From: a virus
IMG/VR virus record: IMGVR_UViG_3300011114_000953
Coordinates: 1 to 34,302 of that record
DNA length: 34,302 nt
Direction: 5' to 3' (one strand)
This document shows positions 9,229 through 27,004 of the stretch, in pieces (within the stretch, counting starts at the first letter, position 1; each line of letters begins with the position of its first letter). The position numbers and the translations under genes were made by a program. The notes under the pieces are model-generated. The model worked only from the letters and a program-made list of their open reading frames with translations. It was not told where the DNA came from and searched no databases.

Positions 9229-10097
9229 TAGGTCTCTCCACGGAAGAAGATGCCAGTCGCACTCCAGAGCCGCGGTGCATCATCCGCCTGGAGGAAGTCC
9301 GCCGCTGCAGACTTTGAAGAGATGCCCGGCATCCTCGCAATTAGGTAGTCCTCATTTGTGAATCCGGCAGCCGTCGCAGCCTGCTCATAAACATGGAAGG
9401 TCACGCCCGTCGCGGCAGCTGCAAGCATCTTCTCAAAGATGTTGTTTGGGTCGCCAACCAGACGGCCAGCCTTCGTCGCATAAATCGACTGCGACGCGTA
9501 CCAAGTGAACGCGTTTGCCACCGGGAACAGCGTGGAGCGGACCTCTATGTCTGCCACCTGTCCCCAGTTCACGACATCGGTGGACAGGCCTGACATCTCC
9601 GATGAGCTGGCTGCGGCGCGCTGCTTCGTCGTCCGCGTCACGTCGCCAGACACACCAGAAGGTGCCCACACGCCACCTACATTGAAGGTCGTGGTCGTCT
9701 GAACGCTGCCGCTTCCAATGCTGACCGTCGTTGACGCGAAGCCGTACACCGCCGCGTCTGCAATACTCCCAAACACCAGCGTGATTGCCGATGCCGACGC
9801 CGTCGTTAGCGTCATCGTCAAAGGTGACAACGAAGGGCCGGTAGTATCTGTGAAGTTGAAGGATGCAACAGCCACGATGCCGAGCGAAACAGGCGGAGGC
9901 CCGACTGTCACAGCCGCCGTTATCTGCGCCGCCAGGTAATAGGCCACCGTGTTAGTCGCAGCAGGGTAGGGTGCTATCAGCGACGACACGCCGAAGCCAA
10001 ATTTGCCGTTCACTGCAGGCACGGACGCCGTTCCAATCGCGTTCGTTACTGTGAACCCAGGAGCTGTCACCTGCCATGCGACTAACGGGAAGTTCAT
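9228..10097 (-). CDS. Distal tail-like protein
   Basis: A 289-residue protein rich in Ala, Thr, Val and Ser, probably beta-structured. The start at ATG 10097 is chosen because GGAG lies seven bases upstream; a TTG start four codons earlier would overlap the ribosome site. It follows the tape measure gene by one base and abuts the large tail-tip protein, the usual place for a distal tail or tail-tip adaptor. The middle contains a low-complexity Thr/Ser run (about 130-160). No family signature is recognisable by eye. Confidence 0.6.
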   Translation of the reverse strand: MNFPLVAWQVTAPGFTVTNAIGTASVPAVNGKFGFGVSSLIAPYPAATNTVAYYLAAQITAAVTVGPPPVSLGIVAVASFNFTDTTGPSLSPLTMTLTTASASAITLVFGSIADAAVYGFASTTVSIGSGSVQTTTTFNVGGVWAPSGVSGDVTRTTKQRAAASSSEMSGLSTDVVNWGQVADIEVRSTLFPVANAFTWYASQSIYATKAGRLVGDPNNIFEKMLAAAATGVTFHVYEQAATAAGFTNEDYLIARMPGISSKSAAADFLQADDAPRLWSATGIFFRGET

Positions 10098-10098
10098 C

Positions 10099-12099: not shown

Positions 12100-12101
12100 G
12101 G

Positions 12102-12826
12102 CTACACCTTCTTCTGAGTAAACAGCTCCGCCATGCGCGTTGCAGCCTTAGTCTTATGCTCGTCGTAATTCTTCTGACCCTCTTCGACCTCGTACTGAAC
12201 GAACTCTGCCAGCTCGAGCTGCGCATGCGTTACCTGCTCCAGCGTAATGACTGGAGCGCCGCGCGCAATCCACTTCGACATCTTCAGTGCGCTCCAGAAG
12301 CCCGCAGGCTCCATCAGAAGCACAGGGCACGTCACAGGCAGTGGCTCCTTATACTCAAAGTCCAGACCCTGCCTGTAACCCATCGTGCAGCCTCTCTGAT
12401 GACGAATCGCGTCAGGACACTCCCAGCAGCGGTTCCGATGTGATGTTATCAGCCGGGCGAAGTCTCGCCATTCGACCCGGCTGAAGTTTTTGGGTAACCC
12501 ACCGTCGCGACCGCAGAGGCAATACTAGAAACATCCGTCCACGGAATCCGACCAATCCACGCGGACCGCTCCTTCTCCGAACCTGCCTTCGGAAAGGCCG
12601 GCTCAAAGTTCTCACTGTCCAGGACGCACGCAGTCAGAAGATTGATGTGAGTCTGGATGATGCGCTCCAGCGCTTCGAAGTCTGCCTTCATCGCCTCCCG
12701 ATGTTTATCCACGGCTGCGAAGTATCGCACGCCTTCCATGGCATTCGGTTCACGGACCAGAAGACGCGCTTCCACGCCTTTGACGGTTACTGTTATCCAC
12801 TCACTTTCAACGAACTGAACTGACAT
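12102..12826 (-). CDS. Tail assembly chaperone, -1 frameshift fusion product (G-T type)
   Basis: A 241-residue product expected when ribosomes slip -1 at C CCA AAA (12494-12488). It carries residues 1-113 of the short chaperone (12449-12826), then 128 residues in the -1 frame. I translated that frame by hand; it is open from the slip site through the ATG at 12383 to the stop at 12102, beginning N-F-S-R-V-E-W-R-D-F-A-R. Tail chaperones of siphophages, as in lambda G/GT, lie exactly here between major tail and tape measure genes and use -1 slippage to make the long form, which recruits tube protein to the tape measure. The unfused 93-residue reading from 12383 is less likely to be used alone. 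Confidence 0.88.
12449..12826 (-). CDS. Tail assembly chaperone, short form (G type)
   Basis: A 125-residue protein made without frameshifting, starting at ATG 12826 after GGAGGG. The N-terminal region is beta-like (SEWITVTVKGVEARLLVRE), followed by helices. It ends about a dozen codons past the slippery site. Its role is inferred from gene order and the frameshift: it should coat the tape measure during tail assembly and be absent from the virion. It corresponds to lambda gpG in function, without recognisable sequence identity. Confidence 0.85.
   Translation of the reverse strand: MSVQFVESEWITVTVKGVEARLLVREPNAMEGVRYFAAVDKHREAMKADFEALERIIQTHINLLTACVLDSENFEPAFPKAGSEKERSAWIGRIPWTDVSSIASAVATVGYPKTSAGSNGETSPG
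12488..12494 (-). promoter_or_regulatory. Programmed -1 ribosomal frameshift site (C CCA AAA)
   Basis: The minus-strand heptamer CCCAAAA is in the zero frame as C CCA AAA (Tyr-Pro-Lys codons), fitting the X XXY YYZ rule. A fifth A follows. The downstream -1 frame is open for 128 codons, ending just before the tape measure gene. No strong stimulatory stem-loop was worked out. Confidence 0.88.
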
Positions 12827-12863
12827 GTGCGCCCTCCGAAGTTTGGGCTGTTAGGGAATCTGG

Positions 12864-13964
12864 TTAGGTAGAAGTCATCAGGAAGGAGAGCAGCGTCGCG
12901 CTGCTGTCAGGAATCGCCTGCCACTTCAGAGCATTGCTGCGATAGCCGTTCGTCTCTCCACCGTTCTCCGGGAAGGCGACGTACTGCGGGTTGTTCAGCG
13001 TGATGGTCCAAGTCTGCGAAGCCGCAATCGTCATGACCAGAACGATGCTGGTGCCGATGGTGTTAGCCTGCGCCTGTGTCCAACTGGCCTGCAGCGTCTC
13101 ATTGAACTCCGCCAGCTCAATCTCCAGCGACGGCGATGCGTCCAGGCGGAAGAAGGAGATGCCGAACCCGTACTCCTTCCGGGTGTCGCCAACGTCGTTC
13201 AGAGTCCAGCCTGTGTCGATAGTGACCTTCGTCGCAGCATCCACAGCGCAGGTGATATCCGTGATGGTCAGAGCGCAGTTCACGCCGATGAGAGGCGCTT
13301 CCGTCGACGGCGACGGGTACGAAGGCTGCTGGTTAGTGCTGTTTGTCACAGGACGCCACGAACCTTTGATGGTCCAGTCAATCATAACGCGCTGGCCGTA
13401 TTCCCACGAAATCTTCGGAAGAGCCACGCAATCAAAGGCCTCGTAACGCTTTCCGCCCGTCTCTTCGTACACCATGCTGAACGGCTGAACCGCGTATGCA
13501 ACAGAATTATCAGCAGGAGGAGTTGCAGTGTTTGTTCTAACTGCCTTCGGCTCAAAGAACGGCTGCACTTCCATCAGCGTGTCGTTCGAAGCGCCATCGT
13601 CAGAGATTGCCCACGGCGACGCAAGCCACAGCGCTGCGAGCTGCGTCTGGTTTGCAAGCGTGATGTCAAAGGCCTCATTGAATAGCCAGAAGAATTCAGT
13701 CTGAAGCGTGATGTCCCATCCGAGGCCACCCGTCCGGCTCGAGGTATTGCCAGCCCACGGAGTGAAGACCTCCTTCCGGTCGATGATGCCAGCGCCGCGA
13801 ACTGCGAACTTCGGAGCTCCGATGCAGCGAATGGCTCGCGTGCCAGTGTAGGTTACCGGAGAGGTAACAGGGAAGACCTCGCAGGGGTCAACCCATGTAC
13901 CCAGCGCGGCCTGCGTGCGGATGAATACTGCGCTTTGGTTACTAGCTAGAAGAGCGGTCGTCAT
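12864..13964 (-). CDS. Major tail (tube) protein
   Basis: A 366-residue beta-rich protein, immediately upstream of the tail chaperones, the standard place for the tail tube subunit. It has the composition of structural proteins (Thr, Ala, Asn, Ser and Trp throughout), and the C-terminal part (about 230-366) has strand-like repeats that could form an added surface domain. The ATG follows AGGA. The upstream gene stops three bases earlier. The call rests on gene order, size and composition. Confidence 0.72.
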   Translation of the reverse strand: MTTALLASNQSAVFIRTQAALGTWVDPCEVFPVTSPVTYTGTRAIRCIGAPKFAVRGAGIIDRKEVFTPWAGNTSSRTGGLGWDITLQTEFFWLFNEAFDITLANQTQLAALWLASPWAISDDGASNDTLMEVQPFFEPKAVRTNTATPPADNSVAYAVQPFSMVYEETGGKRYEAFDCVALPKISWEYGQRVMIDWTIKGSWRPVTNSTNQQPSYPSPSTEAPLIGVNCALTITDITCAVDAATKVTIDTGWTLNDVGDTRKEYGFGISFFRLDASPSLEIELAEFNETLQASWTQAQANTIGTSIVLVMTIAASQTWTITLNNPQYVAFPENGGETNGYRSNALKWQAIPDSSATLLSFLMTST

Positions 13965-13967
13965 GGT

Positions 13968-14603
13968 TTATCCTGCAAGAGAGCGACGCTGGTACACCTG
14001 AATGGATGCCCTGACCGTCTGTTGAATGAGAGATTGTCCCGTGTCGTCCATGCCGACGACGAAGTCCTGCGGCGCGACTCCAGTATAGGGCGACGCGTTG
14101 TAGATGCCTGTCCCCTGCCAGCCCGGTGTGCTTCCGTTACGCAGGTCCAGGTTGATGAACCCGTACGTCGCAGAACACAGAATCATTACGATGCCTTCCA
14201 CGTATGCACGCAGAGCCGTCTCATACACCTCTGCCGTGAACTCTATGGCAGGGTCGCCGGGAGAAGCAGACACCAGTGGCTGCGCGACTCCAAACCCGTC
14301 GTAATAGCCCCAATCTGAACAGACAGTAATCTGCAGCTCATGCAGCTGGTCCATCGCTCCAAGCGCGTCAGTGATGTTGGCGCTCGAGGATGCAACAGAC
14401 AGACCAATTGCCGGCTGCGACTCTGCCGTGAACAGCGTCCGAAGAGACGTGAACACATTCGCAGACACAGGTGCCGGCAGGTTCGGAGCGCCCATCGCCT
14501 TCTGCCATGCAGCAGTGCAGACAGCAGACCAGTTCGCCAGCACCAAAGCCTTCGCCTGGTCTGCCACAATCTGCGGCCCATATGCTGTGCTGGGAATCGT
14601 CAT
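13968..14603 (-). CDS. Tail terminator / neck-type protein
   Basis: A 211-residue protein between a gpG-like neck protein and the major tail protein, where siphophages encode the tail terminator that caps the tube. It has an N-terminal Ala-rich helical segment and a longer mixed C-terminal part, with no catalytic motif. Its ATG overlaps the upstream stop (ATGA). Functional assignment comes from synteny; a sequence family cannot be named. Confidence 0.6.
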   Translation of the reverse strand: MTIPSTAYGPQIVADQAKALVLANWSAVCTAAWQKAMGAPNLPAPVSANVFTSLRTLFTAESQPAIGLSVASSSANITDALGAMDQLHELQITVCSDWGYYDGFGVAQPLVSASPGDPAIEFTAEVYETALRAYVEGIVMILCSATYGFINLDLRNGSTPGWQGTGIYNASPYTGVAPQDFVVGMDDTGQSLIQQTVRASIQVYQRRSLAG

Positions 14604-15256
14604 TTGAGGCCAATCCTTCCGCCGTTCAACTTGAAGTTAGCCGCGTACTGCGCATCCGTGATTCCGACCTTGCCGCCCATTGCTGCTGCAGTCTTTCCCA
14701 GACGGTCCCGGAGCTTGCCGATAAACGGGTCTCCGAACCGCGTCAACGGTCGCTTTGGAGTAAGAACCGTGACTGACTTAGTCTTATTCTTGCCAAACTT
14801 CCGCGTCCAGCCGCCTGTACCGTTGTCATGGTTCGACGCATACGACAGGCTTGTACCCAGTGTCACGATGTTTCCTTGGACCGTGTAGACATAGTTGGCA
14901 TTGCTCTGCACGCACATCGACGGGAACAGCCGCTCACGGCCTGCTGTCCTGCTCTGCGGAGTCTTTGACCAGCGAAGCACTGAACCCTGCTGCATCGGGC
15001 CGCCACCTAGCGCCCACCGCTTCACAGGCACGTAATACTTCTTCTCCATCGCGTTGTAGTTCGCCCACCGGGGACCCGTTGATGCGCCCTGCGACAGGAA
15101 CATGTCGATGCGTGAGTTAGCCCAATCATTCGATACGCCGTCGCTGTCAGTCTTACCGCCCCAGAAGGCAGACCAGTCCCCTGCGTTCCGGATTGCTACC
15201 TCGAGCACCTTCACGCCGTCGTTCGCATTGTTCGTCATCTTTATGAAGACGCTCAT
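14600..15256 (-). CDS. Neck protein, Mu gpG-like virion morphogenesis type
   Basis: A 218-residue protein. Its middle follows the pattern of Mu gpG/HK97 gp10-type head-tail connectors: a helix, an Arg-rich Leu-Arg-Trp-Ser segment, then a strand reading IVTLGTSLSYASNHDNGTGG, comparable to the VxIGTNxxYAxxHxxGG signature of that family. It probably joins the head connector to the tail terminator. The ATG shares a base with the upstream stop (TAATG), and the stop overlaps the next start (ATGA). It is longer than usual family members because of a C-terminal extension rich in Lys and Gly. Confidence 0.65.
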   Translation of the reverse strand: MSVFIKMTNNANDGVKVLEVAIRNAGDWSAFWGGKTDSDGVSNDWANSRIDMFLSQGASTGPRWANYNAMEKKYYVPVKRWALGGGPMQQGSVLRWSKTPQSRTAGRERLFPSMCVQSNANYVYTVQGNIVTLGTSLSYASNHDNGTGGWTRKFGKNKTKSVTVLTPKRPLTRFGDPFIGKLRDRLGKTAAAMGGKVGITDAQYAANFKLNGGRIGLK

Positions 15257-15741
15257 TACATCTTATCTACTGCAGCATTCACGGACAGACGAGAACCGCT
15301 GTTAAGCTGGTTGTTCGTCAGCGTCTGCTGGTAGTTCGCATTTGAACGAAGGATGTTAGGACTGAACAGGCCGTTAGGACGGGTCTTCGCCATGTCCTGG
15401 ACATGCACCCGCAGGCGGTCCCACTGCTGCTTCGCTTCATCGTCCAGGCGGTCTGCCATCGACTGGCTGTCCTGCTGCCGGCTGCGAAGAACCTGCGCCG
15501 CGAAACGAAGCAGGATGTACTTCTGGCAGTTCCGGTACATCGTCGCGCCAGAGTCAGCTGCGAGCGTCGTGATGCTTACACCCATGCCGATGAGGAACCC
15601 GCAGAGGTCCGCTGCATGGTCGTCAATGATGGCCTCTGCCTGCGTGTCAGTCGGCTGCGTCGTCGCGCTGAACGCGATGCGAGGCAGGTAACGGCCGATG
15701 TCCGCAGGAACCACACCAAAGGTTGAGTATTCGTTTGGCAT
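15256..15741 (-). CDS. Head-tail connector (adaptor) protein
   Basis: A 161-residue, mainly helical protein located between the major capsid and neck genes. The N-terminal portion has the small acidic, helical character of gp6-like connectors (AEAIIDDHAADLCGFLIGMGV, then LLRFAAQVLRSRQQ). It likely sits between the portal and neck proteins. The call is positional plus composition. It starts 93 bases after the capsid gene, past a strong hairpin. Confidence 0.65.
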   Translation of the reverse strand: MPNEYSTFGVVPADIGRYLPRIAFSATTQPTDTQAEAIIDDHAADLCGFLIGMGVSITTLAADSGATMYRNCQKYILLRFAAQVLRSRQQDSQSMADRLDDEAKQQWDRLRVHVQDMAKTRPNGLFSPNILRSNANYQQTLTNNQLNSGSRLSVNAAVDKM

Positions 15742-15801
15742 CTTGAACCTCTTTGCTGTGAAGAGACTGCAACCGGAGGGGTCAGAGCTGCAGCCTCATC
15801 A

Positions 15802-15826
15802 CAGCACCCGGCCGAAGCCGGAGCTG
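15802..15826 (-). other. Strong RNA hairpin after the capsid gene
   Basis: On the minus strand CAGC-U-CCGGC, loop UUCG, GCCGG-GU-GCUG forms a stem with a very stable UUCG tetraloop, in the 93-base gap after the capsid stop. No U-tract follows, so a terminator is unlikely. An mRNA processing or stabilising element, or a partial attenuator setting capsid versus connector levels, is more plausible. Confidence 0.6.
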
Positions 15827-15834
15827 CGTCCGAA

Positions 15835-16863
15835 TTACGACACCTCGAGAAGAGCCGCGAACTTGTTCTGCGGGTCGTTCGCAGTCGCGCCGACAACCGT
15901 GACGCCGAGGTCGCACTCAATGTGCAGACCCTGACCCTGCGGATTGTACACGGGGTAGGTGTGGACGGTGCCGGTCGCCTCAGACGGGTTCGGAGTCATC
16001 GTCTGGATGAAGCCCGACGAACCATAGGACTCTGCCACCTTGAAGATGGAGAGGACCTGTCCACCACTGCCGCCGATGACAGACGGAATCGCCGGAGACG
16101 ACGTGCCACCCTGCTGGGTGGTGACGTAGTGCGGGAAGACGACGAGCTCCACGGGAATGAGGAGCTTCGACGCGAACCACGCCTTCAGCTGCGACATGTC
16201 CGTGACGCCAGTGCGGGCGTAGCTCGAGGTGTCAGAAGCCAGCGCGTAGCCAGACTCTGCAACCTGCGTGAGCTTCAGAAGGCCGTTTGCAACCTCCATG
16301 TTGCAGCATGCAACGAAGCGACCGCTGGAGAGGTCAGCACCGCCAGCCATGATGTTGATGATGAGCTGGTTCAGATAACCCTGCAGGTCCGCAGTCGGAG
16401 CATTGTTAATCGTCAGAGCATCGGTGTACGCGTAGTTCGCAGCGGTCGCGATGGTCGTACCGACGAGCGACGTCATCAGCTGCGTGCCCTGCGCCAGAAG
16501 CTTCTGCGTGTAGGTCGCGAGGATGTCGGACCCGCGCGCCTCGAACTCCGCAATCTGCTTCGTGCTGAAGTTCATCTGGCCGAAGCGGTAGATGCCAGCC
16601 TGGTACGTGCCGCTGCTGATGCGGAGACCGCCCGGCGATGCAGGCGAGTCGTATCCGACCGGCGAGTTCGCGTTGCCGGAAGGACCCACGTTGAGCTGGT
16701 CGTTGTCCAGGAAGAAGTGGTAGAAGCCCTGACGCGTATCGACCTTGATGATGGGCGAGACGAGAGCTGCTTCACGGCCCGTCGCGCCGAAGCGCGGAAG
16801 CGAAATCTGCTGGAGGACTGAAGGGCGAAGTGCCCCTGTATTTACGCCAATGGGAAGAGACAT
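15835..16863 (-). CDS. Major capsid protein
   Basis: A 342-residue protein in the position and size range of HK97-fold capsid proteins, after protease/scaffold and decoration genes. It has an N-terminal arm, a beta/alpha mix, a helical stretch near 105-130 and a C-terminal segment ending in beta strands (LHIECDLGVTVVGATAND). It has a strong GGAG ribosome site and well-balanced codons, fitting high expression. It will form the icosahedral shell and probably be processed by the upstream protease. No direct motif proves the fold. Confidence 0.85.
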   Translation of the reverse strand: MSLPIGVNTGALRPSVLQQISLPRFGATGREAALVSPIIKVDTRQGFYHFFLDNDQLNVGPSGNANSPVGYDSPASPGGLRISSGTYQAGIYRFGQMNFSTKQIAEFEARGSDILATYTQKLLAQGTQLMTSLVGTTIATAANYAYTDALTINNAPTADLQGYLNQLIINIMAGGADLSSGRFVACCNMEVANGLLKLTQVAESGYALASDTSSYARTGVTDMSQLKAWFASKLLIPVELVVFPHYVTTQQGGTSSPAIPSVIGGSGGQVLSIFKVAESYGSSGFIQTMTPNPSEATGTVHTYPVYNPQGQGLHIECDLGVTVVGATANDPQNKFAALLEVS

Positions 16864-16900
16864 GCTTTACTCCAAACGATGAAGGCCAGAGCCGGGTTGA

Positions 16901-17329
16901 TTAGAACTGGGTGACTGCGAACTTGATGGTAAACTGCTCACCAACGGTGGCAGCAGTCATCGCGAATCCAATGATGAAGTCACCAGCCAACGGGGTGGCC
17001 ACGATGAAGCGACCCGTAGAATCAACTTCGACTGCAGCTCCGCAAGTGATGGTGCCACCAGCCAAAGCGCCGTCAAAGCAGCCGATGAGAGTGTCGTAAA
17101 TCTCGCAGCTGGTCGCGTAGCCCGGGTAGGTGCCGGTGTCCGATGCAGCGCCAACGACGACGATGCCGACAGGAACGTCGGTGACTGCATTCGCGAGCTC
17201 AAGGGTGGCGACACCGTTAGTCGCGCTGTCGGTCACATTAAGGGTGAGAAGCTTCCCCTCTGCACCAGTGAGGTCTGCCTTTGCAAGGAACTTGAGTGTC
17301 GAACGAGGATTCAGGTCAGCAAGAGCCAT
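16901..17329 (-). CDS. Capsid decoration-like protein
   Basis: A 142-residue, Ala/Thr/Gly/Val-rich, all-beta protein directly upstream of the capsid gene. Composition and repeated short strands (GIVVVGAASDTGTYPGYA, then GGTITCGAAVEVDSTG) resemble DUF2190-like capsid-associated or decoration proteins. It presumably binds and stabilises the expanded shell. The ATG follows GGAG. A scaffold role is unlikely because it lacks helices and charge. Confidence 0.65.
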   Translation of the reverse strand: MALADLNPRSTLKFLAKADLTGAEGKLLTLNVTDSATNGVATLELANAVTDVPVGIVVVGAASDTGTYPGYATSCEIYDTLIGCFDGALAGGTITCGAAVEVDSTGRFIVATPLAGDFIIGFAMTAATVGEQFTIKFAVTQF

Positions 17330-17369
17330 GATTTACTCCAAAGGAGAGAGTCCGAAGACTCGGGTTTGA

Positions 17370-18011
17370 TTAGAGAGAGGTGAACTTCGCAGTGGCGCGC
17401 TTCTCTTCGACAGAGGTCGGTGCCTTCCCGTCGCGAATCCAGCACCAGGCGTCAATCGGGTCGATGCTCTGGGCCTCAGCGAGGTCCGAGATGCACTTGA
17501 TTTGCTCCGCGTCCGAAAGGTCGTTCCACTTCGGCATGTTGCCCATGACGTCCGACAGGTTCAGACTGTTGCCGTTCGTCATGCCAGGAGCGATGGGCGA
17601 CACAGCGCGAGGAGCTGCAGCTGCAACCTTTGCGGCAACAGGCGCGAGGTCCGAAAGAAGCGCCTCGAAGGTTGCAGTCTTTCCAGCGACCAGTGCGTCA
17701 GTAAGAAGGGTCTCCATCGCGCTGCTAACCTTCCGGCCAGTAATCGCGCTCTTCACCTTCTCCGATGCAGCCGAACGCTTCACGCGATTCAGCTCTGCAC
17801 GAAGCGACGCAACCTCCGACATCGGAGCCTCCGCGTCAGCCTTTTCGACCTCCTCGTCTTCCTTCTTGGCCTCGGCCTCAATCGAAACCTCGTCAAGCGT
17901 CGGTGCCTCTGCCATCGCAGCAGCCGAAACCATCTTCAGCAGCTCCTCAACCTTCGCCTGGTCAAGCCCAAGCTCATTGCAATACGCGCCCATCATGTCT
18001 GCAAACTTCAT
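17370..18011 (-). CDS. Nested scaffold protein (internal start in protease gene)
   Basis: The in-frame ATG at 18011 is preceded by GGAAGGAAA, spaced four bases from the ATG, the best ribosome site in the gene. It would make a 213-residue protein containing the helical, acidic scaffold region without the protease domain. This is the arrangement known for Mu I/Z and lambda C/Nu3. The separate product is inferred. Confidence 0.7.
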   Translation of the reverse strand: MKFADMMGAYCNELGLDQAKVEELLKMVSAAAMAEAPTLDEVSIEAEAKKEDEEVEKADAEAPMSEVASLRAELNRVKRSAASEKVKSAITGRKVSSAMETLLTDALVAGKTATFEALLSDLAPVAAKVAAAAPRAVSPIAPGMTNGNSLNLSDVMGNMPKWNDLSDAEQIKCISDLAEAQSIDPIDAWCWIRDGKAPTSVEEKRATAKFTSL

Positions 18012-18578
18012 GGTGTTTCCTTCCGAAAGGGATACCCCGCGCATCTCTGCGACGGGTACCTGTTGAGTCTTTATCTGTGGCACCGTGACGAAACTGACTT
18101 CACCGATTCCGAACGGGAACCGCCTGTCTGTTTCCGTCGATGCGCCTGCGCGAATGTTCGGAGAGATGTACGGCACCTCTCCGGCATCAAACCGCGCAGC
18201 CCACTCCGGACTGGTCACGTCCAACCCGCCATAAATCATCCGCGACGCAGGCTGTTTGATTCCGAGCTTCGCAGCTTCGCCAGCGCTCAGAACGCGAATC
18301 GCCCGGAGGTAGCCTGCGGCCGTTCCGTCCTTCACATGCTCTACCGCAATCGGAGGAGCGAACTCCTGCAGCCAGTCTTCCAGCGACGACACGACATCAT
18401 CAAACCGGAACTGCAGCTTATCGGGGTCCGTCTTCGCAGCTGCAAGGTCCCACACGGTGCCATGCGCGTGAATCTTCCCCTCTGGAAGCAGAGACACCCA
18501 GCGAAGAGCACCATCGTCTCCAAGGTTGACCTCGTTCGTCCGGATGCGGGGACGATTATGTAAGCTGCTCTTTGACAT
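17370..18578 (-). CDS. Head maturation protease with C-terminal scaffold (Mu gpI-like)
   Basis: A 402-residue protein when started at ATG 18578; a GTG ten codons upstream (18608) is also possible and neither has a strong ribosome site. The N-terminal 180 residues have features of Mu gpI-like prohead proteases: a G.I..HG..W segment, APPIAVEHVKDG, an AAGYL..I segment and YISPNI. The C-terminal 200 residues are helical and charged (EAEAKKEDEEVEKADAEAP), typical of scaffolds. The protease should process the scaffold, and perhaps the capsid protein, during maturation. An internal ATG at 18011 can make the scaffold alone. Confidence 0.8.
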   Translation of the reverse strand: MSKSSLHNRPRIRTNEVNLGDDGALRWVSLLPEGKIHAHGTVWDLAAAKTDPDKLQFRFDDVVSSLEDWLQEFAPPIAVEHVKDGTAAGYLRAIRVLSAGEAAKLGIKQPASRMIYGGLDVTSPEWAARFDAGEVPYISPNIRAGASTETDRRFPFGIGEVSFVTVPQIKTQQVPVAEMRGVSLSEGNTMKFADMMGAYCNELGLDQAKVEELLKMVSAAAMAEAPTLDEVSIEAEAKKEDEEVEKADAEAPMSEVASLRAELNRVKRSAASEKVKSAITGRKVSSAMETLLTDALVAGKTATFEALLSDLAPVAAKVAAAAPRAVSPIAPGMTNGNSLNLSDVMGNMPKWNDLSDAEQIKCISDLAEAQSIDPIDAWCWIRDGKAPTSVEEKRATAKFTSL

Positions 18579-18703
18579 GCCGACATCTTGCACGCCCTTT
18601 CTTTGCACTGAAAGTCTTTGTTTGTCGCTTTATCCTCCACTAGTGTGGCGTTCGCCGCAGTAGTGCAATCCTATCTGCTGCGCGGTATTCTTTTGGAGGA
18701 ACC

Positions 18704-18955
18704 ATGGACCAGTCAGCACTATCGAAAAGACAAAAGGCGCTCCTTGACGAGCTTCATCGCTGTCACGCAGTCGGATTCCACCCGTCTCCCAGAACCCTCG
18801 CAGCGCGCATCGGCTACTTCGGAGACAAAGCCGTCCGGTCTGAGCTCATGTCCCTCTTCATTGAAGGCCACATCACTCAAATCTTCAAAGGCATCGGCTC
18901 GAGGTCCAACAGGTACATCCTCAAAGGTTGCACCTGCGAGGTCTGCAGCCTCTAG
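18704..18955 (+). CDS. LexA-like winged-helix DNA-binding protein, opposite strand in late cluster
   Basis: An 83-residue protein whose length is nearly all winged helix: residues about 6-72 follow the LexA N-terminal domain pattern (LSKRQKALLDEL, then a PS.RTLA..IGY recognition region, then LMSLFIEGHI and GSRSNRYIL). There is no protease domain. A CTCEVC tail could bind metal. The GGAGGA ribosome site is strong. It lies on the plus strand between the minus-strand portal and protease genes, and its TAG stop shares CTAG with the portal stop. It needs its own promoter, and may regulate late genes. This is a 'moron'-like insertion in layout. Confidence 0.8.
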   Translation: MDQSALSKRQKALLDELHRCHAVGFHPSPRTLAARIGYFGDKAVRSELMSLFIEGHITQIFKGIGSRSNRYILKGCTCEVCSL

Positions 18956-21858
18956 TCGTACAGACCGATGTAACCGCAGCGGCAGCGGCCTGCGCCACCT
19001 AGACAGTCCGGGTCTGGAAGCGGAGGCAGCACAAGGTCAGTGCCGACGACGAAGTCCCGGACGTTGTACTCTTTGCCGTCCAACGATTCGCAGACATCGC
19101 AGCGGTCCGCGTCATTGATGCTCGAGCGGATGACCCGGTCAGGAACCAGCGGTGCCAGACCAGAAGAGGCCAGCGCCGCAGGAGTCTGCGCGTACCCTGC
19201 TGCACGCGATGCAGACTCAATCATGTTCCGTGGTTGAAGCGTGCTGGTCATCAGGCCGGCAGGCGTAATCCGCGTGACGAACTTAGACATGTCAGCGCCA
19301 CCCAGAATCGCCTGCTCCACTTCGCCCTGGACACGGTCAGTCACAATCTCTGCGGCCTTCTGCGTTGCAGCTGCAGCCAGCGCGAACTGCTGGTCAGCAG
19401 CAGCCTGAAACGACTTCACCGCATCGTCGATTTGAGCAGACGGCTTTGCTTCCACGCCGAGGCCAGAACGCGCAGTCAACTTCGCCTCATCGACGACGCC
19501 TTCAATCACGTTCTTCCGCATCTCACCAGCCCCAGTCGTCAGTGCGGAAGAGTAGAGCTGAAGGTACTTATTCCAAAGCGCATCGCGCTCTCCGGCCTGC
19601 CATCCATCGGCCAGACCTGCAATCACGGCTGCGCGATGCTCGTCTGCAATCGCTAGAATCGCAGTCGTCAGCAACTCGTCCAATACCGCGCGACTGTCAG
19701 CCAGCGACACCCAGCTCACAACCTTCTCCTCCGCGCGGAGAGGCCGGTAGTTCACGAACTCTTTGCCGTCGCCGCCGACGACGAGAAAGCCTTCGCCTTC
19801 GCCGTCTGCAAGGTCACCTCCGCCAGTCTTCGAACGGTCAGACAGACGCGACGCGCGACGATGAGCGCCCTGCGCGTACTCCATCAAAAGAGAGCGAACC
19901 CAGCGACGGCCGGCATCGCCTCCGCGCAGCTGGTACGCATGATACGAAGGACCGCCAGACTTGAACGACTTCGTCTCCACCTGACGCGGGTACTCACGAC
20001 CGAAGTACTCTGCTAGCTTCATCACCCTGCGCCAGGACAAACGCTTGCCGCCTGCGAGGTCACGCGCAATCAGCAGCGCTTCCGTGTCAGTCGTCCGGCC
20101 CTTCGCGATGAGACGATGCGCCTCGAGCGCGGCAGCTGCAATCTGCATCACCTCCGCAGGAACCAGACTGTCAGGAGCCTCAGACATCGACGCGACCAGA
20201 AGCGTCGCTTCATCGGCCATGTCGTCTGCCATCTTCGCGTCAGGCGGCTCTGCAGATGCAGGCGCAAACGCAGACGACTCTCCAATCGCAGCAGGAACCT
20301 CTACATTCCCGCCGATGACGACCTGCGGAACATCAGCAGGCGCAGTCTCTGGAGCTGCCGGTGCAACCGTCAAGATTTCCTTTACAGTTCCATTTGCAAC
20401 GGGTGCCGCAGCCGCAGGTGCGCCCATGCCCATCTGCGCTGCAACCATCTGGTCCGCTGTCTCTGGCTGAACACCTGCCGCAATCAGAAGCAGACGCGCC
20501 GCCTCTGGTGCAATCGGAGCCGCGGAGCCCGGCACCAGCCCGGCCAGAATCGTCTGAGCGATGCCGACCGCTGTGCTTCCGATAGCTTCCGGCAGGTCGT
20601 CGTTGTCCTGCTCTACTGTTACTTCCGGTGCGCCGATGACGCGACGTGCCCACGCTTCGTCATCAGGACCGCGACGAATCAGACCAGACTGCACGCCCTG
20701 GACATACGCGGCCCATCCATCCAGACCCGTCGTCAGCTCCGCAGACACGCTGCGAAGGCAGGGAAGCTTCCCTTCGTACCCATGCGCCTTCGCCAGCCAG
20801 CCAAACATGCCCGTCGATGCGCGCTCAAAGATGGTGTCAACCCATGCCTTCGCGCGACGGCCTGCCGCATCGTCAACCGTCTCCGCCATTGCACGCGAAC
20901 CGAACTTGCCGATGCCGGCCAGATTGTCGTTCAGCATCCGCTGGATGAGCGTGTCGTAATAGGTGAGCTGCGCAAGAACATCAGGGCCTGCGCCCTTCGG
21001 ATACTTCATCTCCACGTCAACAGACCGAGGACGAAGAATGTACTTCCGCACGCCATCTTGGAACTGGCCTGCCAGCGTGTTCATTGCGTCGATGTCGTCA
21101 GTCGATACCGACGGGTCATACGCGATGTCCAAGAAGCCCCAGCTCATCTGATTGTAGATGCCTGCGTTCAGCGCCGTCTGCTTCCACAGCTCATACGGCT
21201 GAAGCAGCGAACGAAGAATGCTCTTGCCTTCCCACTCACCAGCCGTCGCTGTGCCATGCACAACGTGAACGAGGTCCGCTGCTGGGACGTTCGCGTAACC
21301 CTGACCCGTCGAGAACTTCACGCCACGCAGGAAGTAGCTCTGCGGCTCCGGGTCCCACAGCATCACCGACGAATGAGCGACAGGGTACCACTCAACAGAG
21401 TTCCCCTCGAGGAGACGCGGCAGCATCAGCCCAAAGCCCATGAACGCATCCAGAATGACGTACTGCCACAGCGCGTTAGCGCCAGACAGCGTCCCGTCAA
21501 AGACGACCGCCTCTTCAATCACAGCCTGCGTGCAGATGTGCATGAAGGCCTTCTCTTCTGCGCCTGGCATCGAAGTGTGTGGCCAGATGACCTCCTTCGG
21601 AAGAGACGCGGCTTCCGTGATTGACCAGTACACAGCCGACGCGATGCCGGAGTGAGTCTGCATCATCTCCTGGTACTTACCACTAACGCTGCCGCCTGTG
21701 CCGCGTCGCTGATACGGACCGAATGTGCTGTTAGGGTCCGCGTCCGGGAAGCCGCCCTTGAAGTTCCGAACGCCCATGACACTAACGCGAGTGTTCGCGT
21801 CCATCACGGAAATCGGGTTTCCAGACGGGTCCACTAATCCAGAATTCCGCGTCACCAT
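18952..21858 (-). CDS. Portal protein fused to GGDAGR domain and MuF-like C terminus
   Basis: A 968-residue fusion. Residues about 50-420 look like a Mu gp29/DUF935-type portal, the dodecameric channel for packaging. An Ala/Pro-rich linker spans about 440-545. Residues about 565-655 match a domain often seen in phage proteins, here AR.L..GKRLS...V..LAEYF and ending GGDAGRRW. Residues about 700-968 resemble the MuF head morphogenesis family: DRCDVCESLDGK near 918-928, and DCLGGAGRCRCG at the end. Normally portal and MuF are separate genes. The ATG overlaps the terminase gene by 7 bases, after AGGGTG. Confidence 0.82.
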   Translation of the reverse strand: MVTRNSGLVDPSGNPISVMDANTRVSVMGVRNFKGGFPDADPNSTFGPYQRRGTGGSVSGKYQEMMQTHSGIASAVYWSITEAASLPKEVIWPHTSMPGAEEKAFMHICTQAVIEEAVVFDGTLSGANALWQYVILDAFMGFGLMLPRLLEGNSVEWYPVAHSSVMLWDPEPQSYFLRGVKFSTGQGYANVPAADLVHVVHGTATAGEWEGKSILRSLLQPYELWKQTALNAGIYNQMSWGFLDIAYDPSVSTDDIDAMNTLAGQFQDGVRKYILRPRSVDVEMKYPKGAGPDVLAQLTYYDTLIQRMLNDNLAGIGKFGSRAMAETVDDAAGRRAKAWVDTIFERASTGMFGWLAKAHGYEGKLPCLRSVSAELTTGLDGWAAYVQGVQSGLIRRGPDDEAWARRVIGAPEVTVEQDNDDLPEAIGSTAVGIAQTILAGLVPGSAAPIAPEAARLLLIAAGVQPETADQMVAAQMGMGAPAAAAPVANGTVKEILTVAPAAPETAPADVPQVVIGGNVEVPAAIGESSAFAPASAEPPDAKMADDMADEATLLVASMSEAPDSLVPAEVMQIAAAALEAHRLIAKGRTTDTEALLIARDLAGGKRLSWRRVMKLAEYFGREYPRQVETKSFKSGGPSYHAYQLRGGDAGRRWVRSLLMEYAQGAHRRASRLSDRSKTGGGDLADGEGEGFLVVGGDGKEFVNYRPLRAEEKVVSWVSLADSRAVLDELLTTAILAIADEHRAAVIAGLADGWQAGERDALWNKYLQLYSSALTTGAGEMRKNVIEGVVDEAKLTARSGLGVEAKPSAQIDDAVKSFQAAADQQFALAAAATQKAAEIVTDRVQGEVEQAILGGADMSKFVTRITPAGLMTSTLQPRNMIESASRAAGYAQTPAALASSGLAPLVPDRVIRSSINDADRCDVCESLDGKEYNVRDFVVGTDLVLPPLPDPDCLGGAGRCRCGYIGLYD

Positions 21859-23108
21859 GTGTTCACCCTGGAAGATGTCGCCTGATTCTTCGGAATCGTG
21901 CGGACATCACGACTTACACCTAAACGCTCTGCGCCATGCCACGCCAGAGCATGCGCGCAAACAGCGTCATCGTTCATTGACGACGGCGCTTCGTAAACAA
22001 TCCTGTTGCCGCGCATCTCGTACTCAAAGCCTTCCAGCTCCGCTCGGTGCACGCCGTCGATAACCGAAGTGCGCCCCTGCTGTAAAGCCATTGCAAGGCC
22101 TTCCATCAAACCTTGCTTAGAGGCAGACGAGAAGATGAAGGGTTCAACCCACACCTTCTCCTTCTCCAGCTGCTCTCCGACTGGGTCGCCAACTCCGGTC
22201 GCGTCGTAAAACACGCAAGCCTTTGACTGCGGCCCCACGATGCCTTTGATTTGCTCCACGATGCGGCTGTACGGCAGGCCATGCCACCGATGGAACTGCG
22301 CCACCTTGCGGTTCGCGTCCAAGCCGATGAGAACCGTGTGGTCACGCTTTCGAGCTATGTCTAAACCCCAGACGCGAACGGGAGCGCCTGTGAGCTGGCC
22401 GTTGCAGAGCTCCGCGCAGTTCCGAATCGCGTCGATGCCGAACGGGTTCGCACCGTCGTCGCTGGGTTCGCAGTAATACAGCTGCCGGAAGACAGAATGC
22501 GGCATGGACCGGCGCGCCATCTCGAGGTCCGCAGCGTGCCACAGGCCAGCTGCAACAGCGTCGTCAGCAGTAAGACGATGATACGCAAAGCCCGGCTCCC
22601 CTGCCTCCGCTTTCCGGCTCCACTGGTAATGACGATTGCTGCGGCCGCGAACGTTGCCGATGAGACGCATCCGGCCCCGCGTCGCTGTCGTCGTACTGTA
22701 CACAGCGTCAACCGCGTCGTCTTTCATCCGACTGGCTTCGTCCAGGACGGCACTTGAAACAGCAGACCCGTATAGGTTGTCTGGTTTGTCAGCGCTCTTG
22801 AACATCCAGCGCCGTTCGCCCGGCCCGATGATGCTGCGGTCGGACAGCGACTGACGGAAGCCCGGCTTACCGCGCAGCAGCTTCCACGCTTCACGGAAGG
22901 CCATGTCTGCCTGTTGGTACACAGGTGCCACCCACCAGTGTTCAGTGTCCGGGCCCGCCTTCAGCATCTCCGAAATCTGCCAGATGATACAGGAGAGAGT
23001 CTTCCCTGCCTTCGTCGTCGATTCAATGCAGACGATGCGTGCAGGGTCCAGAACCGCAGCGCCCTGCTTCTTATACAGGCGCGGTAGTTCAACGACGATT
23101 TCAGGCAT
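21852..23108 (-). CDS. terL: Terminase large subunit
   Basis: A 418-residue DNA packaging motor. The ATPase part has a Walker A-like STTKAGKT at 30-37 and a Walker B VLDEA at 121-125. The nuclease part has the three acidic positions expected of the RNase H-like fold: Asp250 in VWGLDIARKRD, Asp302 in VFYDATG, and Asp380/381 in SMNDDAV. It cuts concatemers and drives DNA through the portal. It overlaps the small subunit gene by 8 bases and the portal by 7. Compact size is normal for this group. The packaging mode (cos or headful) is not evident. Confidence 0.93.
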   Translation of the reverse strand: MPEIVVELPRLYKKQGAAVLDPARIVCIESTTKAGKTLSCIIWQISEMLKAGPDTEHWWVAPVYQQADMAFREAWKLLRGKPGFRQSLSDRSIIGPGERRWMFKSADKPDNLYGSAVSSAVLDEASRMKDDAVDAVYSTTTATRGRMRLIGNVRGRSNRHYQWSRKAEAGEPGFAYHRLTADDAVAAGLWHAADLEMARRSMPHSVFRQLYYCEPSDDGANPFGIDAIRNCAELCNGQLTGAPVRVWGLDIARKRDHTVLIGLDANRKVAQFHRWHGLPYSRIVEQIKGIVGPQSKACVFYDATGVGDPVGEQLEKEKVWVEPFIFSSASKQGLMEGLAMALQQGRTSVIDGVHRAELEGFEYEMRGNRIVYEAPSSMNDDAVCAHALAWHGAERLGVSRDVRTIPKNQATSSRVNTW

Positions 23109-23526
23109 CTTCGCCCTCTGCGCCGCGAATGCGGTCCACGATGGGTATCTCTATCTTGAATGAGACGGCCTCTCCACCGGTCGTGATGTCCAGCGCCTTC
23201 CGCTGCGCGACATCTAGCCCCAGCAGCTTAGACCTACGGTCTTCAATGGCGAGCGCAGCTGCGATGGCCTTTGGGTCTCCGGCTTGAACCTTCTCCCACA
23301 GCGCATCCATCATTGCGTCCAGGCGACCTGCCTGATTCGCCACATGCTTCTCCGCAGTGCCGACCAGCTCCTCCTTCTTCTCCTCCAGCGCCTTCTGCAG
23401 CAGCTGGCATACGTAGCCACCAGACAGGCCCAGCGCCTCTCCGATGGCGCGCATGCTCTTCCCTTGCAGGCGGAGCTTCCATGCCTCTTCTTGAAAGTCC
23501 TGTTTCTCTTCTCGTGTGAAGCCCAT
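23101..23526 (-). CDS. terS: Terminase small subunit
   Basis: A 141-residue protein. Residues about 22-48 form a helix-turn-helix (SMRAIGEALGLSGGYVCQLL) for DNA recognition. A central charged coiled-coil helix (about 46-105) would drive oligomerisation, and a short beta-like C terminus would contact the large subunit. Immediate upstream position to terL, size and HTH support the call. The start at ATG 23526 has GGAG. It is the first gene of the minus-strand late module, and the intergenic region just upstream may contain its recognition site. Confidence 0.88.
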   Translation of the reverse strand: MGFTREEKQDFQEEAWKLRLQGKSMRAIGEALGLSGGYVCQLLQKALEEKKEELVGTAEKHVANQAGRLDAMMDALWEKVQAGDPKAIAAALAIEDRRSKLLGLDVAQRKALDITTGGEAVSFKIEIPIVDRIRGAEGEDA

Positions 23527-23704: not shown

Positions 23705-23962
23705 CGGAAGGGTGTATGCGCTTTGACACGCTAGAAGGGTGCTTTGCCGCTCTTGACGGCCTTTGACGGAATCCGCCCCACTTCGCGCCCCACTACTAAA
23801 AACCTTGTTTGAGGCAGGAAGTATGCGGCCGCGCGGGTGTTTTTGGGGTCCGCCCCAAAACTCAAAACACCACACCGACTATGTGCGCGGACGTGCAGGC
23901 GCATGCGAGCGTGTGCGCAGGTGCGCAGGTGCGCGCGTGTATAGGTGCTGTGTGTTCAGATG

Positions 23963-24073
23963 TGGGGCATGTGGGGCAGTAAAGAAAGATATGAGAAGAA
24001 ACAGTAAGATAGAGAGATAAACCCGCCCCAGACCTTGGGGCAACCTTGGGGCGCAAGTGGGGCGGATTGGGGC
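23963..24073. repeat. TGGGGC motif array
   Basis: TGGGGC occurs at 23963, 23972, 24036, 24047, 24058 and 24068, with an inverse copy at 24025. Further inverse copies lie outside this interval at 23775, 23787 and 23852. Spacing of the last four is 11, 11 and 10 bases, one helical turn each. Two copies share the longer unit ACCTTGGGGC. Confidence 0.8.
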
Positions 24074-24124
24074 AGAAGGTACCTTGAGAGGGTCAAACAG
24101 CCCTATTCTGGGGGCATCAGCCAA

Positions 24125-24172
24125 AAATCGGGGAGCAGCTGCCAGAAATCGGGGAGCAGCTGCCAGAAATCG
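24125..24172. repeat. Tandem 21-bp repeats
   Basis: Two perfect 21-base units (24125-24145 and 24146-24166) are followed by the first six bases of a third. Each contains the palindrome GCAGCTGC. The 21-base period is two helical turns. GCTCCC (24172-24177) can pair with GGGAGC in either repeat. Confidence 0.88.
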
Positions 24173-24250: not shown

Positions 24251-27004
24251 ATGAGCGAGACGAGGTGCCTAGACGCGGCCCTTCTGTACGCTTCGCGCGG
24301 CTGGCAGGTCTTTCCTGTCGGCTCCGGGAAGTCAAAGAAGGAGCCATTTACGAAGAACGGTCTGCACGATGCGACGACGGACCCTCCGACGATTCGCAGC
24401 TGGTGGAAGAAGTGGCCCAGCGCGAACGTGGGCATCCGGACGGGGCAGGCCTCTCGTCTGGCAGTGCTGGACCTAGACGCGAAGGACATTCCGGTTGAAG
24501 TTCTGATGGAGGAGTGTGAGCGGCTGGCCGGTTCGCCCTTCCCACGGACGGCGATGTCGAAGACGGGAGGCGGAGGTCTGCACCTTCTGTTTGAGCTGGA
24601 AGAGGGACAGGTCGTCCAGAACTCCACGGGAAGCATCTGCAGGAACGTGGATACTCGAGGAGAGGGTGGCTACATCGTCGCGCCACCTTCGCTGCATAAC
24701 AGTGGGAAGCTGTACGCATGGGCGGAGGAAGACGGGGACACGGGTCTGGAGTCGGAGTGTCCGCCTGCAGCTGCAACGTGGCTGCTTCTCCTTCTGAAGA
24801 GTACGGGTACGACGGCGCGTGAAGAGCGGGTTCGGAACGGCGACCTAGGCGATGTGTCCTGGGTGGCATCGGCGCTGTTCAGTCTAAGTGCGTCGATGTC
24901 TTATGCGGACTGGTTCCGCGTGGGCATGGCCCTGCGCGATGTGCCGGACGGTTACCAGCTGTGGATGGATTGGTCAGCGACGAGTCCGAAGTTCGATGAT
25001 GAGTCTGCGAAGGTGCAGTGGGAGCGCATCCAGAAGAACGGCAAGTCGTTCATCGGTCTGGGTACGCTGTGGCATGCAGCGACGCAGGCTGGGTGGAAAC
25101 CGCCCAAGAAGGTCAAAACAGAGCCGGTCATGCCTAACTGGATGCTGGACGATGTGCCACTGCCAGAAGAGCCGTCTGCGAAGAAGGAGAAGGCCGCAGC
25201 GGAGGAGCCTGCAGCTGCTCGGACATACGCGCCTAACCTGCCAGAAGATTATGACATCGACGAGAACGGGCGTCTGGTCCGGGTGGCGATGGTCAAGGGG
25301 AGGGACGGCAAAGAGGTAGAGAAGCATGTACTGGTGTCTGACCCTCCCTTCTTTATCACGAAGCGCATCCTCGAGGTGACGATGGGCGTGGAGAGCCTGC
25401 AGGCGGAGTGGGACGACGAAGACAGGAGGAAGATACAGGTGGAGTCACGTCGGGTGTTCTGCAGCGGTAACGCTCTGCTGGGTTGCCTAGACTCTGGGAT
25501 ACCTGTGACCTCTGCGACCTCTGCGGAGGCAGTGCGCTACATCGGCGCGTCGGAGTCGATGTTACGCAGGTGTGCGCACCAGGAGCGGATGTCGCGCGTG
25601 CTAGGATGGCATGGCAAAGGCTTCCTGCTAGGAGAGGTTGCCATGGGCGATGCCCCTGCCTTCTTGAAGCTGGATGAGACAGGCGCGAAGGCCGTGTCGA
25701 TGGTTCACCAGAACGGGACGGCGCAAGAGTGGACGACGGCCCTGTTGCCCTATCTGATTGAGCATTCGACGCTGCGAGCGATGGTGGCATCAGCGTCTGC
25801 ATCGGCGCTGCTCCCGTTCCTTGGAGAGACAGCCCGGACCTTCTTTATGGACCTGTGCGGAGAGACAGGGTGCGGCAAGTCGCAGATGATGCAGGTGGCG
25901 CTGTCAGCGATAGGGTATCCGCTTGAGCTGGCGACGACCTACAGCTCCACGCCGATTGCGATTCAGAGTTATGTCAGCATGTTCGCTCACCACACGGTTG
26001 CGATTGATGAGACGAAGAACTGGTCTGAGCGTTTAGGTCCAAAGCACCTGTCTGCGCTAGTGTACCAGCTGATGAGCGGCCGAGGCCGTGACCGTGGAAC
26101 GACGGTGGTAGGAAAGTTCCAGCGGACGGAAGAGTTCAAGAGCATCATTATCAGTACATCGGAGTATCCGCTGTCGTCGATTACGGGAGACGGTGGCCTG
26201 CGCTCGAGGTGTGTGACGCTGCATGGGTTGCCATGGGGAGAGCAGTCGCCGCAGATGGCAGCGAAGATTGCGGACCTGCTGTCTCACATGTCGATGCATT
26301 ACGGCCATGCGCAGATGCGGATGGTGGAACATTTGCAGGGTCTGGACGATGCCGGCAAGAAGGCGCTGCGCGCATCGTGGAACCATTACCAGGCGGAGTT
26401 CACGACGCGTGCACTGAAGCTGTCGCCGGGGAATAAGGTGGCACCTCGTCTGGCCGGTTACATGGCGACGCTAGAACTAACGTGGAGGCTGCTGCAGGAC
26501 TTCATGGCGAAGTGGGTTGGAGAGGCCGCTTTGCCTGTGGACTGGTACGACATCATGGTGGGAACCGACGAGCTGTGGATGAAGGTTCTGTCAGCGGGAG
26601 CCAGCGCGGACCGTCCGCTTGCAGCTTTGGAGTTCGTCATGGGCCTTGTGGCTTTGGAGCCGGACAAGTTCGCGAACGTCGGAGCGAAGACGCAGGAGAT
26701 GCCGAACGGCGGCTGGATGGGTGTTGCGCGCGTGCAGGACGGAACGATTGCGGAGCTGGGTGTGGTTGTGAGTAAGCTGCGCGAAGTGTTGAAGCGTGCT
26801 GACTTCGACGCGGAAGGCGTCTTCAAGGCGTGGCAGCTGCGCGGGTGGTTGGAGACTGATGCGAAGCGCCTGGACAAGAAGGCGATGGTTGCAGGCGTCC
26901 GCGTGCGCTGCATGGTTTTGTCTAAAGCCGCTTTGAAGGAAGTCCACGGGGAGCCGGTGCCGGACATCCGCGTGGTTGATGAAAGGTTCGAAGATGTCGT
27001 CTGA
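24251..27004 (+). CDS. Prim-Pol primase fused to DUF927-like helicase
   Basis: A 917-residue replication initiator. Residues about 5-180 form a bifunctional primase-polymerase domain: DLD at 74-76, SKTGGGGLH at 103-111, and DTRGEGGYIVAPPS at 134-147. Residues about 215-283 resemble the PriCT linker domain (YADWFRVGMALRD, GTLWHAATQAGW). Residues about 360-750 are a DUF927-like ATPase with Walker A GETGCGKS (537-544) and Walker B VAIDET (583-588). It can prime and unwind DNA, so it could start replication while the host supplies the main polymerase. It has its own promoter next to repeats. Confidence 0.92.
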   Translation: MSETRCLDAALLYASRGWQVFPVGSGKSKKEPFTKNGLHDATTDPPTIRSWWKKWPSANVGIRTGQASRLAVLDLDAKDIPVEVLMEECERLAGSPFPRTAMSKTGGGGLHLLFELEEGQVVQNSTGSICRNVDTRGEGGYIVAPPSLHNSGKLYAWAEEDGDTGLESECPPAAATWLLLLLKSTGTTAREERVRNGDLGDVSWVASALFSLSASMSYADWFRVGMALRDVPDGYQLWMDWSATSPKFDDESAKVQWERIQKNGKSFIGLGTLWHAATQAGWKPPKKVKTEPVMPNWMLDDVPLPEEPSAKKEKAAAEEPAAARTYAPNLPEDYDIDENGRLVRVAMVKGRDGKEVEKHVLVSDPPFFITKRILEVTMGVESLQAEWDDEDRRKIQVESRRVFCSGNALLGCLDSGIPVTSATSAEAVRYIGASESMLRRCAHQERMSRVLGWHGKGFLLGEVAMGDAPAFLKLDETGAKAVSMVHQNGTAQEWTTALLPYLIEHSTLRAMVASASASALLPFLGETARTFFMDLCGETGCGKSQMMQVALSAIGYPLELATTYSSTPIAIQSYVSMFAHHTVAIDETKNWSERLGPKHLSALVYQLMSGRGRDRGTTVVGKFQRTEEFKSIIISTSEYPLSSITGDGGLRSRCVTLHGLPWGEQSPQMAAKIADLLSHMSMHYGHAQMRMVEHLQGLDDAGKKALRASWNHYQAEFTTRALKLSPGNKVAPRLAGYMATLELTWRLLQDFMAKWVGEAALPVDWYDIMVGTDELWMKVLSAGASADRPLAALEFVMGLVALEPDKFANVGAKTQEMPNGGWMGVARVQDGTIAELGVVVSKLREVLKRADFDAEGVFKAWQLRGWLETDAKRLDKKAMVAGVRVRCMVLSKAALKEVHGEPVPDIRVVDERFEDVV

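Follow-up and report, generated by a model that had tools for sequence, protein, structure and literature searches.

Ten exact copies of the word TGGGGC, read on either strand, are clustered at 23775-24073 of the tailed-phage genome analysed here, a stretch of 34,302 nucleotides referred to below as the window. It is highly probable that this array is the phage's replication origin, belonging to the kind known from SaPIs and PICIs, and the TGGGGC words are most probably docking sites of the phage's own primase-helicase. The array is read in this way because of the family and fold of that protein, the sites themselves, the melting tract beside them and their layout. The original prediction had already recognized in iterons next to a melting site the layout of an origin, with a packaging site as the alternative, and the origin reading has gained good support from the initiator's family and fold, the conserved geometry and the melting tract, as well as from words that change with the initiator lineage and from arrays that accompany the same helicase family amid other gene neighbours.

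The window is a circular assembly: the 141 bases at its start recur at its end, and relatives run across the junction. The array lies between the divergent starts of a terS-like gene (23526, minus strand) and the primase-helicase gene (24251, plus strand), the latter followed rightward by RecE-like and RecT-like genes (Table 1). The terS-like protein matches PHROG 645, which is labelled 'Rnase E', a label that looks like a misannotation given the protein's terS-like position and HTH. Seven of the large leftward genes of the structural region (5288-21858) were compared with PHROGs and none was matched; the virion proteins of the clade therefore look undescribed. Two relatives depart from the window within this region. 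In L028, positions 12928-13807 align in inverted orientation to window positions 20603-21476, inside a 968-aa gene (18952-21858), with the adjoining stretches aligning directly, which reflects either an inversion or an assembly fault near a contig end, and L002 is longer by about 320 bases at window position 20226. Rfam and tRNA scans across the window found nothing, and a nucleotide search of annotated phages with the array region as query gave no match.

Table 1. The array and its neighbours, in window coordinates
Feature	Position	Strand	Basis or remark
Terminase large subunit (terL)	21852..23108	-	PHROGs
terS-like HTH protein, alternative candidate for reading the array	23101..23526	-	Position before terL; alignments
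TGGGGC, left outer group	23775..23780	-	Exact match
TGGGGC, left outer group	23787..23792	-	Exact match
TGGGGT, one-mismatch copy	23844-23849		Adjoins left inner site
TGGGGC, left inner site	23852..23857	-	Exact match; within palindrome TTTTGGGGTCCGCCCCAAAA
TGGGGC, right inner pair, first	23963..23968	+	Exact match; 9-bp pair kept in relatives
TGGGGC, right inner pair, second	23972..23977	+	Exact match; 9-bp pair kept in relatives
Purine-rich, A+T-rich tract, proposed melting (unwinding) element	23978..24020		72% A+T, 84% purine
TGGGGC, opposite-strand copy	24025..24030	-	Exact match; 53 bp from inner pair; layout conserved
TGGGGC, right phased tandem	24036..24041	+	Exact match
TGGGGC, right phased tandem	24047..24052	+	Exact match
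TGGGGC, right phased tandem	24058..24063	+	Exact match
TGGGGC, right phased tandem	24068..24073	+	Exact match; TGAGGC in L002, intact in L003
Primase-helicase, proposed initiator	24251..27004	+	Prim-Pol, PriCT-2, DUF927 helicase, Cch HTH (Pfam); 917 aa

Exact matching returned the same ten copies that had been counted from the sequence, against a density of 0.089 per 300 bp outside the array, and reproduced the spacings of 11, 11 and 10 bp among the four tandem copies at its right end. The accompanying statement that only one other clear copy exists elsewhere was mistaken. Another ten lie dispersed over the window, almost all of them within leftward genes, such that TGGGGC is not over-represented window-wide (20 observed vs 16.7 expected); its clustering is confined to 23775-24073. 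Between the array and the primase start, at 24107-24172, there is also an imperfect 21-bp tandem repeat, present in three copies and in fewer in L002 and L003.

The A+T-rich tract is in the right half of the array, with the inner pair on one side and the outer group on the other. It had been proposed as the easily melted DNA of the neighbourhood, and this turned out to be an understatement, as the least stable 40-mer of the entire 34,161-bp circle, based on nearest-neighbour energies, starts at 23980, inside the tract. In the GC-skew check that had been suggested, the minimum, at 23804, coincides with the array, but it is confounded with the switch in gene strand at the same place.

The primase-helicase combines a Prim-Pol domain (Pfam, 2.1e-39), a DUF927 helicase core (PF06048, 1.3e-28, above cut-off) and a C-terminal, Cch-type HTH (PF18662, 3.8e-8, 33.8 bits vs a cut-off of 26.2). 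Its only confident sequence relatives in the PDB are SaPIbov1 Rep (8tch) and SCCmec Cch (5dgk), and matches to it among GTDB genomes were confined to the Prim-Pol domain. An AlphaFold model covering residues 330-917, built from 16 natural relatives and having a mean pLDDT of 79, resembles both structures over nearly its full length (model residues 1-577 with 5dgk and 1-570 with 8tch) at Z about 29, the next structures scoring about 13. Foldseek additionally matched the C-terminal domain to TcpK, the relaxosome DNA-binding protein of pCW3 (5vfx), a match that is suggestive of a DNA-binding fold in the modelled domain. We infer from these relationships that the primase-helicase belongs to the class of initiators whose C-terminal domain recognizes iterons, and that it would bind the cognate words here.

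Clustered words recur among phages with the same terminase. A TerL scan yielded 32 loci, and of 20 further intergenic regions that were examined for clustered words, all 20 contained a single short word, in 6-15 copies within the same gap; since clade members are related, these loci do not count as independent. Word classes, as taken from k-mer counts, comprise TGGGGC (the window, L099 and L123), GGTAACAG (L100, L101, L105, L110, L112 and L114, with the GGTAACG of L106 grouped here), GGTAACAT (L104, L111 and L115), TGGGAAG (L116, L118, L120 and L126), TGGGAACA (L121, L122 and L127) and TGGGGAC (L010). Site order and strand are kept in several of these classes, in the form of a 9-bp pair, a gap of ~52-58 bp, an opposite-strand copy and a 10-13-bp tandem. 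Throughout the clade the array lies 5' of the initiator gene, and no arrays were found 3' of the clade's initiators. The gene content around the array does vary: in L101, L106, L110, L112 and L114, the array is separated from the DUF927 primase-helicase by a gene for an SF2 (ResIII/DEAD-type) helicase of about 570 aa, and a helicase-like gene adjoins the array in L010.

The original prediction was vulnerable to relatives that keep the genes without the motif spacing. Close relatives retain all or nearly all sites, and the more distant L123 (71% TerL identity) preserves the order, the strands and the 9-bp pair, but has a gap of 90 bp in place of 53. Between the window and L127/L121, where words differ and sequences are unalignable, seven of ten sites match in position and strand; against nulls made by random placement or by permuting the spacings, such agreement arose in 0/1000 random placements and, with permuted spacings, in 2 and 0 of 1000. 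L116 has six sites in common with the window. Iteron columns are less changed than their flanks in most comparisons; the window's closest relatives go in the same direction, if not significantly (1/60 iteron vs 40/632 flank substitutions, p 0.11), and L121/L127 display no iteron vs flank difference. Comparison of the window with L099 and L003, its closest relatives, shows a single indel within the iteron region; located between the arms at ~23899-23908, it is exactly 10 bp long, or about one helical turn, and this one event is suggestive of phasing being kept.

Arrays also accompany relatives of the helicase outside the clade, where they are found 3' of the gene and not 5' (seven viral loci). 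Further arrays 3' of a DUF927 helicase gene occur in the phages THSA-485A, phiRg507T2_3 and FP_Epona and in Geobacillus and Streptomyces plasmids. In L164, capsid, protease and portal genes come immediately past the array; both L164 and L191 are contigs of ~18 kb with the order rep, array, capsid/protease/portal genes, and they look like capsid-forming PICIs. Many of the outside loci have a dyad layout, in which convergently oriented inner pairs lie ~51-64 bp from the centre and a copy on the opposite strand lies at ~110. Eleven outside loci agreed with this template at 49 of 66 positions (null mean 36.1, 0/400), the template having been written after part of the eleven had been seen. Among seven DUF927 genes that were fetched later and given an automatic motif choice, three had clear arrays, all 3' of the gene, which agreed at 14 of 18 positions (null mean 9.6, 1/1000); pDATS04, a Deinococcus plasmid, scored 6/6. 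Because the other four of the seven had weak or no arrays, the layout is to be seen as common, not universal; DUF927 genes without a clear array are those of Jekyll (L243), Antarctobacter (L254) and L251, and the arrays of L250 and L255 are weak. The window itself fits the symmetric template at four of six positions, which is not significant alone (86/400), a shortfall due to the single exact copy in its left inner arm. A pair-plus-52 feature was weak in the freshly fetched set (3 vs 0.96, 51/1000), the pair-plus-gap thresholds having been fixed after the first loci had been viewed. It is about as likely as not that a single dyad blueprint, with inner pairs at ~51-64 bp, an opposite-strand site at ~110 and outer 10-12-bp tandems, is common to the DUF927 (MCM-like) initiators found in phages, satellites and plasmids; the word would then turn over freely with the C-terminal domain, and the blueprint would stay because it places two helicase rings face to face.

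The principal alternative is that the array is a pac site, at which the neighbour-encoded TerS binds and packaging starts. The terS start is 249 bp from the first iteron copy, and the clade's contigs are circularly permuted, as headful packaging predicts, but so, too, would be any circular assembly. TerS and the primase both vary between clades, and a Mantel-type correlation with word similarity (Spearman 0.71 for the TerS N-terminus, 0.64 for the primase C-terminus) shows TerS tracking the word as well as the primase does. As this overall correlation does not separate the two proteins, the argument about the reader relies on specific pairs and on geometry. The TerS proteins of L106 and L110 are 98-99% identical, yet the words are GGTAACG and GGTAACAG, the primase C-termini being 81% identical; conversely, the layout is conserved between the window and L127/L121 across TerS N-terminal domains that are unrelated (15-19%). 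When TerS N-termini are 30-45% identical, word elements are nearly always shared by pairs whose primase C-termini are at least 30% identical and otherwise not, with L106/L111 as the exception. Moreover, loci outside this terminase family carry the array next to the DUF927 helicase gene, with none on the gene's other side, and packaging offers no evident role for a melting tract. A pac site is an improbable account of the array, although the region could serve packaging and replication alike. Domain content bears on the reader as well: the N-terminal primase is of the Prim-Pol type in the window and in L123 and of the Toprim type in the remaining classes examined, whereas all have DUF927 and the Cch HTH in common, the HTH falling below cut-off in two. 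The word is therefore likely to be read by the helicase through its C-terminal domain.

Less probable still is a purely regulatory operator, in which a repressor or the initiator would bind the words solely to control divergent early and late promoters. Operators are common in the divergent gaps of phages, and the array does sit in such a gap. Against this, phased sites that extend over some 300 bp and include a melting tract would make a large operator, the arrays outside the clade are 3' of the helicase gene and not in divergent gaps, and no sigma-70-like promoter was found in the array region, this last being weak evidence. A double role as operator and origin is possible, and the divergent genes may also be autoregulated from these sites. 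Chance or compositional clustering of a G-rich word, for which it might be said that TGGGGC is not rare genome-wide, has a negligible likelihood. TGGGGC is alone among the window's 6-mers in reaching ten copies within 300 bp, the intergenic region after dinucleotide shuffling gave a top 6-mer count of 4.1 on average and 7 at most (0/100 attaining the ten observed), and the array is conserved in relatives, with other words replacing TGGGGC in the same layout.

If the array is the origin, then initiation might proceed as follows. The C-terminal HTH of the primase-helicase would read TGGGGC, and copies arranged as an imperfect dyad would gather two helicase assemblies face to face, with the phased sites at 24036-24073 placing subunits on one face of the helix. 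The purine-rich tract would then melt, the helicases would load onto the single strands, and the fused Prim-Pol would prime synthesis of the circular genome.

Such an origin in a tailed phage would mean that a layout that was called PICI-unique in 2018 also serves tailed phages as well as plasmids from several bacterial phyla, and sequence alone would then suffice to mark replication origins in viral contigs that lack annotation. The many pairs of initiator and word, in which words change under a constant spacing, open the specificity of initiators and the way it evolves to direct testing, and the dyad hints at a manner in which two MCM-like helicases might be placed on DNA. Since spacing is kept while words differ in related phages, satellites and plasmids, a recognition code could be derived by comparison; were the blueprint true, every locus would supply one protein-word pair for learning it.

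Among known systems, the closest are the SaPIs. The C-terminal domain of SaPI Rep recognizes iterons, SaPI origins are 3' of rep, the DUF927 protein Cch is related to SaPIbov1 Rep, and the direct repeats that follow the Cch2 gene are bound by that protein's C-terminal domain (PMC7581432). The window shares with SaPIbov1 a homologous DUF927 helicase with a C-terminal DNA-binding domain, alike in sequence and full-length fold (8tch), and clustered short iterons that adjoin the initiator gene, a likeness at the level of general arrangement. It differs in that its array is 5' of the initiator gene and shared with terS, in place of lying immediately 3' of rep, that its helicase is fused to an archaeo-eukaryotic Prim-Pol and that the element has its own terL. 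SCCmec Cch has the same fold (5dgk) as a DUF927, MCM-like helicase, but only three short iterons are reported for Cch2. PICI origins, part of a pri-rep-ori module, consist of two iteron sets flanking an A+T-rich region, an organization stated to be absent from any other known bacterial replicon (PMC6092414). The window likewise has two sets of short iterons and, as in the PICIs of E. coli and Gram-positive cocci, sets them beside an A+T-rich, presumed melting site; in contrast to PICIs, the organization is here that of tailed phages which encode a terminase of their own, and relatives carry it in non-satellite phages and plasmids. A classical PICI is a satellite without a large terminase, and the window's own terL excludes only these, because capsid-forming PICIs also carry terminase genes. 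Lambda O iterons, P4 alpha/ori and iteron plasmids, too, place repeated initiator sites beside an A+T-rich melting tract, but their initiators are from unrelated or more distant families. The best reading of the window's array is, then, a SaPI/PICI-type origin in a tailed phage, lying upstream of its presumed initiator and beside terS.
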